Part shown: piece after piece, positions 36,655-39,600 of the stretch | Position numbering within the stretch: the first letter of the stretch is position 1 | How the letters are laid out: every line of letters starts with the position of its first letter | DNA from: Clavelina lepadiformis | Taxonomy: Eukaryota > Chordata > Ascidiacea > Aplousobranchia > Clavelinidae | Assembly (NCBI RefSeq): GCF_947623445.1 | Contig: NC_135247.1 | Location: 994,501-1,058,500 of the forward strand | Direction of reading: 5' to 3' | Length of the DNA: 64,000 bases | The notes under the pieces: model-generated | Databases searched by the model: none | What the model saw: the letters and a program-made list of their open reading frames with translations, nothing else | What the model was told of the DNA's origin: nothing | Translations under genes and position numbers: made by a program

Positions 36655-39600
36655 CTAACCATTGTTGTTTTTTTGTTGTTCGAAGTACATCATGTCCTGT
36701 CAAAAATAAATGAAGTTAGTTCTGAATCTAATGTTTGTAAGGGAATTCATTGACATATCTATGATACTAATACCTTAACGCATAAATTTTTGCCTATTTT
36801 AAGTATTCAGTTTCACATTTAGTTAGTAACACTTACAAATAAGAATGTCGCTCCAATCAACACTGCTTTCATCTTCACGTCCAAATCCATGGGAACTGCA
36901 GCATTATAGAAAGGGTTTGTTATGCACCAAGTCTTATTTTAACCGGTAGCAAAATGTCATGTCTGATATGATAGCGAAGTAAAAAGAAACAAATTTACAA
37001 AATTCAGCAGGTTTTAATTAACGGATTGTGATAATATTGTGATTATAACCAAAACTAATATACAGATTATGTGAGATTTACAATTCTAATACTTATGTGT
37101 CGTTTTAGCAAAGAGTAACACGACCCGCAATCATTTCCTGTACCATTGTTGTGACGCAATATTTTGCCTTTCTCGCATGCGTTCAATTTGTCGAAAATAA
37201 GTTTGTTGGCGTAGGGCAGTAAGAAGTGACAAGTCTGGGAATAATTAGCAATCAGCAATTTAATGCAGTTGAATATAGCTAAGCCAAAATGCTATTACAT
37301 TAACTGTTGAATGAAGTGTTGTTGATGTGCCAATGTTCTGTCAATTTGTAATCGTATAACGAAGAAACAATATAACCAGTTTATACAATCAACAAATTTG
37401 TGCAAACTACTGAACAATACAACTTAAGATAAGCTCAGTGTTAAGTCAGACAACTCTGCTTGTCGGCTTCACAAGACAATCAGCTTTTAGCTGAACAATC
37501 GAGTCTAGGATTGATTAAGCAAACAACGACCTTGAGGCTCATTATATCGATGACAATAAACATTCAGACAATCAAAGATTGTATTGGAGTGACTGGTGCA
37601 GTCAAGATCAATACAATCTTTGATTGTCTGAATGTTTATTGTCATCGATATAATGAGCCTCAAGGTCGTTGTTTGCTTAATCAATCCTAGACTCGATTGT
37701 TCAGCTAAAAGCTGATTGTCTTGTGAAGCCGACAAGCAGAGTTGTCTGACTTAACACTGAGCTTATCTTAAGTTGTATTGTTCAGTAGTTTGCACAAATT
37801 TGTTGATTGTATAAACTGGTTATATTGTTTCTTCGTTATACGATTACAAATTGACAGAACATTGGCACATCAACAACACTTCATTCAACAGTCAATGTAA
37901 TAGCATTTTGGCTTAGCTATATTCAACTGCATTAAATTGCTGATTGCTAATTATTCCCAGACTTGTCACTTCTTACTGCCCTACGCCAACAAACTTATTT
38001 TCGACAAATTGAACGCATGCGAGAAAGGCAAAATATTGCGTCACAACAATGGTACAGGAAATGATTGCGGGTCGTGTTACTCTTTGCTAAAACGACACAT
38101 AAGTATTAGAATTGTAAATCTCACATAATCTGTATATTAGTTTTGGTTATAATCACAATATTATCACAGGATCAAACAGAAAGTTGTTCTTCGCTTTAGG
38201 CCTACAAGACATTTCAAGTTTCCATACATGTGGGATAGATAGCTGTTAAATCATAGAGAAGATCGTGTTGATTGCAAGATAAATTATACTCACAGCTGAC
38301 TGAAAAGTTGGTTGCTTTCGTGTAGGCTTCCCTGAGAAATCCGCCATATTGCTTCGCTATCCTGCCAATCGGGGGGTTTGAAGTATCTTTGGGGTGAATA
38401 TCAAATGGTACGTCATTGGGGCAACAAGGACCTGTACAAATGCAGCATGGACCCTTGATCTTAAATATCTGCTCGCCATTTGCGTCCAAAATGTTGAAAT
38501 AGGGAGTCCAGAGGTAGTGGCTAGAAAATTAAATAAAAGCTTCCTGCTTAACTTTGAAATAAACTCACTTTATAAGAAAATTTGGGCTGTAGCTTTTAGC
38601 GGCTTGGTCTTTCGTTCTTGTGCCAGATTTTACGGTGTAAGTTTTTTTGAAGTTTTTTAATTTATCAAAACATAAGTTATTTTAAACCAAGGTTCGACAA
38701 ACAAAGGTCAAATTAACTGTTTTTCAATTACAGTTTAGGCCAAATGTTACTGCTAAGTTTTGAGTTAAGCGGTAAAATTTTATTCATGTTGCATTCAAAA
38801 CCAGCACCAAACAAACCGATTGGTTGAGTTTCGTATTTTTGAGTTTCTCAACTTTCCACAAAACGGCCTCAACAGCTGTTTTGTAAAAAATGTAGGTCTA
38901 CCTAGTGTAGTCAGATCAAAGGGACTTTTAACTATGCACTCCAAAATGAAAGCTTCATGGGGAAAGTATTAACAGGTAATAGAGAAGTAGTTATGACGTA
39001 ATAACCAGTCAACAATGTATTCGATCGCGGTATTAAGTGGGGTGGAAACATAAAGGAAATCCGATCAAATTAGATTGTTCTATCAAATAGCTATTATTAC
39101 GTATCTTACTCTTGTCGTATTTGTCCAATGGGATTGCCGACTGGTGATTCCACGTTGACCATGAAAGCGCAGTGGTCTGTGTTGGCGCACCAGCAGCAGC
39201 CTGCGCAGCACTTGAACTCCCGAGTAAGTCGAATAACTTCCTGTGGGAAAGTTCCATTTTTAATCACGACGAGACAACAATAACGTTGAGAATGATTTCT
39301 ACTAGAGAGCTACTATGTATTTTAACTGATTGGTATGTAGGCTACTGTACATTCAGCAAGCAACTGTTTGCGTAAGCTATGATATGTTGACAGTGATATA
39401 TGAAGCGCGTTTTTAATATTAACCAAAATTGACATACTTTGCCTGTGTTGTCATCTATATGCATGACGAAGCCGCGCGCGTTCTTGCAGCACAATCGCAT
39501 ACAAAGGTCGGATTCTAAAGAACAAACAGTTAAAATATGTCTCAAAGTTAAAAAGCAACTTCGGGTTTAAAGAGATGGATCTTACCTTCATGGGCGTAGT

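Follow-up and report, generated by a model that had tools for sequence, protein, structure and literature searches.

How a nearly perfect palindrome of about 1.1 kb came to lie within what appears to be an intron of a protein-coding gene is the question raised by this part of the Clavelina lepadiformis genome. The palindrome is found on contig C8, and the window, which means here the whole stretch of 64 kb that was analysed, corresponds to C8:994501-1058500. An earlier note on this DNA had described two arms of 560 bp with about one substitution around a spacer of 22 bp, had placed them in an intron of a phospholipid scramblase (PLSCR) gene, and had noticed that the mirror ends exactly at GGAT on both sides.

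The palindrome and its surroundings

Sequence comparison recovered the described geometry in all its parts. The features of the region are as follows:

38256-38522, minus strand: match to the scramblase family (profile search), with an exon end probably at 38294
36896-38293, minus strand: putative scramblase (PLSCR) intron of 1398 bp containing the insertion, with splice sites inferred from the sequence
37023-37026, no strand: GGAT, left copy of the 4-bp target-site duplication
37027-37586, plus strand: left arm, bases 1-560 of a long terminal repeat (LTR), starting at the U3 end TGTGATAATA
37587-37608, plus strand: spacer of 22 nt, LTR bases 561-582 in single copy (from the match of locus L003 to bases 1-582)
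37609-37611, no strand: turn-back point CAA, which is LTR bases 583-585 in plus sense as well as the complement of bases 558-560
37609-38168, minus strand: right arm, LTR bases 560-1 inverted, terminating in a second U3 end
38169-38172, no strand: GGAT, right copy of the target-site duplication

The arms, 560 bp each, align without any indel and with a single mismatch (A at 37302 versus C at 37893), and their symmetry ends at 37026/38169, exactly where the two GGAT copies stand. When the window was scanned for inverted repeats of at least 40 bp (14-base seed, copies at most 5 kb apart) just one other was detected, at 649-1393, with 50 bp, 90% matched, and 645 nt between its arms. A chance origin of the palindrome is therefore excluded.

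On the minus strand the segment 38256-38522 matches PF03803 with E values of 5.6e-12 and 1.6e-14 in two profile searches. A donor-like GTGAGT starts at 38293 and an acceptor-like AG is found at 36897-36896. This putative pair joins the scramblase segment in frame to a downstream protein stretch, which we take to be the typical C-terminal stretch of a scramblase. With the profile match and the in-frame splice sites around it, the palindrome would indeed sit inside a scramblase intron, as had been claimed. Without the insert and with one GGAT the predicted length of this intron would be about 252 bp. The long RNA duplex that had been envisaged is likewise in line with structure prediction, which folds the insert, as RNA, into one long hairpin of -1009 kcal/mol.

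The source of the arms

A genome search with 37027-37600 listed at least 44 matches, i.e., the two arms in the window, 39 near-full-length matches of 92-97% identity and three partial ones; as 40 of 404 candidates were scored, this copy number is a lower bound. The copies have a common unit of about 611 bp (TGTGATAATA...CATTCCATTACA), and the left arm together with the spacer represents bases 1-582 of this LTR. The suggestion of a fold-back element of an unrecognised kind had therefore to be abandoned, since the arm is a dispersed LTR. A regular expression extracted 53 copies of this family, called family A here: 30 solo LTRs and 23 copies adjoining a leader/primer-binding site or a polypurine tract. 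This panel leaves out L015, L016, L020, and L037, which the expression missed. An exact 4-bp duplication flanks 29 of the 30 extracted solo LTRs, L033 being the exception. The search for arm copies with flanking 4-bp repeats, which the earlier note had recommended, thus found such copies, and its reading of GGAT as a duplication made upon insertion holds.

Eight pairs of LTRs in direct order are spaced by 7578-7588 bp, with 0, 2, 0, 0, 0, 0, 0, and 0 differing sites between the two LTRs. As seven of these eight pairs are identical, family A has moved recently. Six pieces of L042, an element of this kind, yielded DUF7041, reverse transcriptase (RVT_1), RNase H (RT_RNaseH), Integrase_H2C2, and a part of the integrase core (rve), in an order which we take to be that of Ty3/Gypsy elements, and a TGG following the leader presumably marks the tRNA primer site. 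The source thus appears to be a Ty3/Gypsy-type LTR retrotransposon, an assignment based on domain order rather than on a tree. The palindrome consists of the LTR of an element with reverse transcriptase, RNase H, and integrase domains and carries a 4-bp duplication of the size usual in the family, so that both its LTR origin and its insertion signature are well supported.

Several observations concern the elements themselves. L042 has a third open frame of about 650 amino acids behind pol (L042:6338-8290), and a similar frame is present on the minus strand of L024 (1854-3755). The second half of the L042 frame matched the Herpesvirus glycoprotein B ectodomain at an E value of 6.6e-10, with 39.3 bits against a curated cut-off of 43, which suggests an env-like gene. 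LTR triplets occur at C6:16587962, 16595540, and 16603118, with the 7578-bp spacing of tandem elements with a common LTR, and at C2:22679143, 22691455, and 22703761, with a spacing of about 12.3 kb and the same right flank, as in a tandem duplication. L073 and L074, which belong to the related families B and C, respectively, are short elements with two LTRs of 376 and 429 bp that start 1548 and 958 bp apart; leader and purine tract are present in both, and they are apparently non-autonomous. At L014:1501-2112 a family A LTR is followed by the leader/primer-binding site of the family C element L074 (ACGTTTATGGTGCCAACGAGCTCG), probably a chimeric element.

Read against the LTR, the palindrome runs from base 1 to base 585 and then back from base 560 to base 1, with the three nucleotides CAA common to both readings: the plus-sense match to L003 stops at element base 585 and the inverted match begins at 583. 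Because of this turn-back near base 585 the insert has a U3 end on each side and lacks a U5 end; the last 26 nt or so of the LTR, which an ordinary solo LTR would have, are absent. Compared with the panel, the two arms have 23 non-majority columns in common, four of which are absent from all 53 other copies, and their only difference falls on a column where G (32 of 53) and A (20 of 53) are both common. Either the second arm was templated by the first or by an identical strand, or conversion homogenised the two later. The earlier note had concluded from the near-identity that the palindrome is either young or maintained by gene conversion. Copying of one arm from its partner prior to insertion would account for the near-identity, with later conversion conceivable but unneeded.

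Other insertions with two U3 ends

The family A U3-end pattern is present at 101 sites of the genome, and the reversed control pattern at none. Among 100 listed hits there are six inverted pairs within 5 kb, all of them with their U3 ends outward. No inverted U5 pairs were seen among 100 listed of 112 family A U5 ends. Families B and C, which have U3 ends of their own, yielded 351 and 158 sites, of which 100 listed sites each were used for the census. A second family A U3 pattern added L059, the family B and C searches added L060, L071, and L072, and reading 11 of the 13 family A U3 ends that lack a U5 partner and lie outside the six inverted pairs added L062, L063, and L064. Altogether at least 13 U3-U3 insertions were found across the three related families, the one in the window included; insertions of this kind make up nine of the 82 loci built from the 100 listed family A hits. 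This count leaves out the lone family A U3 ends C2:24056128 and C4:16596973, L066 and L070, the family B ends at C5:21026809/21029083, which form an outward pair with 2.3 kb between them, the inward pair of family C at C6:18819433/18820835, and C4:2739395 and C4:2969742, two look-alikes of L061.

The individual insertions, with their target-site duplication, the LTR base at which the sequence breaks, and the microhomology at the junction, where these could be given, are:

window: GGAT; break at 585; 3 nt
L021: GATG; 2-3 nt
L022: AGTT; 2 nt
L039: AATC; break at 212
L040: GGCT; break at 103; 6 nt
L041: AAGT
L059: AAGG
L060: GGCT
L062: AGGT; break at 300; 3 nt
L063: breaks at 359/95
L064: AGAT; break at 134; 11 nt
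L071: GATC
L072: inexact flanks GATC/GATT

Exact 4-bp duplications thus flank 11 of the 13 insertions found, for which the probability under random flanks is near 7e-24, assuming base frequencies. The two exceptions, L072 with its inexact flanks and L063, in which one U3 end is 6 nt short and a duplication is absent, count against the explanation that we prefer below.

Some candidates had to be rejected. L061 (C4:1565408), which resembled a repeated fold-back, is a solo LTR of the ordinary kind, flanked by CCTT on either side and located beside other LTR pieces. In L056, L067, L068, and L069 the LTR terminates in the ordinary way and a matching 4-bp repeat comes next, L065 runs from U3 to U5 as usual but has no matching repeat, and in L055 a purine tract precedes a chimeric LTR. 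The LTRs of L056, L065, and L055 start as family A and go on as family B-like or other sequence, and are apparently recombinants between families in ordinary orientation. L067, L068, and L069 (C7:3777425, 3815913, 3841401) are solo LTRs that are nearly identical and all flanked by the duplication TATC; these three of the 82 family A loci are probably one locus multiplied by segmental duplication.

Junctions and joins between families

In L021, L022, L041, L060, and L071 the long arm passes the end of the LTR and continues for 4-7 nt into the leader/primer-binding site, and in L059 it stops at the LTR end and is followed by letters that could not be placed. Breaks 0-8 nt past the U5 end therefore occur in six of the 13 U3-U3 insertions; uniformly distributed breaks would place six of 13 in this 9-nt zone with a probability of at most 2.6e-7, a figure to be read with the fact that the zone was picked after the data had been seen. 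The cluster coincides with the place where plus-strand strong-stop DNA ends. The remaining details are less uniform. The palindrome in the window turns back 26 nt before the U5 end is reached, L039 has a filler of 22 nt at its junction, L060 requires two switches, and L021 has two arm differences beside the junction where all 53 panel copies agree, all of which count against the best explanation. L063 has two unplaced bases at the junction, L072 is complex with a repeated U3, the arms of L059 differ from each other as judged by eye, and those of L041 are strongly divergent (72 identities, 15 mismatches, and 15 gaps).

Another finding was that three of the 13 insertions combine U3 sequence of different families. 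L062 consists of 300 nt of family A U3, identical to L005 (100%), and 96 nt of family B U3, L064 of 134 nt of family A and 164 nt of family C, and in L041 a B-like stretch (96.5% over 86 nt) is flanked by two A-like ends. Unless a chimeric parent existed, the joins in L062 and L064 can be derived neither from one strand folding on itself nor from rearrangement of a single solo LTR.

Formation of the palindrome

Taken together, the palindrome is most probably an integrated LTR-retrotransposon cDNA with two U3 ends that arose from self- or cross-primed plus-strand strong-stop DNA. The sequences themselves show that the insert derives from an LTR, that it has U3 ends on both sides, and that across the insertions found there are 4-bp duplications, varied junctions with a cluster at the strong-stop end, and joins between families; from these we infer the strong-stop intermediate, the route of second-strand synthesis, and the joining by integrase. 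Plus-strand strong-stop DNA (U3-R-U5) would be primed at the polypurine tract, and the 3' end of the nascent strand would quit its minus-strand template at about LTR base 585. The freed end could then pair via CAA with the plus-sense bases 558-560 of its own or of an identical strand and be extended back to LTR base 1. A switch onto genomic RNA rather than DNA is also possible. The product would have to be made fully double-stranded, perhaps by extension of the 3' ends of two paired strands or by renewed priming at the polypurine tract, which could convert a hairpin to a duplex with two U3 ends, a step that we propose ourselves. Finally integrase would take both U3 ends and insert the molecule with the usual 4-bp stagger of the family, duplicating GGAT.

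In an alternative with the same intermediate the plus strand would never have switched to itself but, in every case, to a separate molecule, either another plus-strand DNA, yielding a tail-to-tail dimer, or genomic RNA near its 3' end. L062 and L064 need such a second template since they join different families, and the sole difference between the window arms lies where both letters are common in the family (G 32 and A 20 of 53). However, the arms of the window, L021, L022, L039, and L040 agree in all or nearly all of their non-majority variants, and the loop of just 22 nt in the window suits self-folding, yet an identical co-packaged RNA would look alike. An exclusive switch to a second molecule is hence possible but rather doubtful. 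Autointegration, in which integrase inserts the end of a cDNA into its own molecule or into a second cDNA before the product integrates, would likewise join LTR pieces in inverted order. The inner junction should then contain an LTR terminus (CA-3'). The inner junctions that could be placed, however, lie within the LTR or a few nucleotides beyond the U5 end, and short microhomology is frequent there, which makes autointegration very improbable.

Large palindromes can come from rearrangement, and conversion can keep their arms alike, so a normal solo LTR might have become palindromic later by chromosomal rearrangement or gene conversion. This is improbable, because the symmetry stops exactly at the U3 end with the target duplication intact, as likewise in 11 of 13 cases, five junctions include leader/primer-binding nucleotides that a solo LTR does not have, and in L062 and L064 the two U3 ends belong to different families. 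A transposon of the DNA type or of the fold-back (TIR) type, moved by its own transposase, would also have long terminal inverted repeats and short target duplications, but the arm belongs to a U3-R-U5 LTR whose full-length copies have reverse transcriptase and integrase domains, and we found no common internal structure, junction or size among the 13 insertions from the matches listed, as expected of separate origins. There is hardly any probability left for such an element. Least probable of all is an artefact of assembly or fold-back sequencing. Snap-back artefacts do exist, but neither a boundary that coincides with a U3 terminus and a duplicated GGAT nor 12 further cases with different junctions and different 4-bp repeats would be expected of them, and the published assembly was built on 117-fold HiFi reads from fragments of 12-20 kb (PMC10884593).

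Beyond the single locus, we lean, with some reserve, to the view that Ty3/Gypsy-type reverse transcription in C. lepadiformis regularly leads to integrase-type insertion of tail-to-tail plus-strand DNAs with two U3 ends, which sometimes come from different families. If this is true, LTR retrotransposons can generate palindromes as well as inserts that have terminal inverted repeats, which would give some kilobase palindromes or inverted repeats in introns a simple origin. Repeat software might class such inserts as solo LTRs or as unknown TIR elements. The findings suggest that two U3 ends can be integrated with a normal stagger in a living animal, and the A-B and A-C joins indicate that a single reaction brought together plus-sense strands from different families. 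Plus-strand recycling beyond yeast becomes testable if such scars are counted in other genomes. No precedent for integrated U3-U3 LTR products was found in the open-access literature searched, which excludes most subscription journals, and priority is not claimed.

Comparison with known systems

With a solo Ty3/Gypsy-type LTR the palindrome has in common the LTR sequence, the U3 terminus, and the 4-bp target duplication; it differs in being palindromic and in having a U3 end on either side but no U5 end. Solo LTRs are usually explained by recombination of an element already in place; the palindrome, in contrast, must have had its mirrored form when it was inserted. Fold-back and TIR DNA transposons have long terminal inverted repeats and short target duplications as well. 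In contrast to these, there is no sign of a common transposing unit here: the arms are LTR sequence and each case has a structure of its own. HIV-1 minus-strand strong-stop DNA can fold back and prime on itself in vitro, which resembles the formation proposed for the palindrome, but in C. lepadiformis the plus strand would be involved and the products are integrated.

The closest parallel is the recycling of plus-strand strong-stop DNA in Ty3 and Ty1. In Ty3 the polypurine tract primes repeatedly, and displaced, dead-end plus-strand strong-stop DNA accumulates in the particles (PMC5371799). Such displaced strands are the precursor that we propose for the palindrome, although the pertinent section of that review deals with particle DNA and not with hairpins, dimers or integration (PMC5371799). 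The U3-U3 scars in C. lepadiformis would then be a fossil record of a by-product of reverse transcription that is known from yeast particles.
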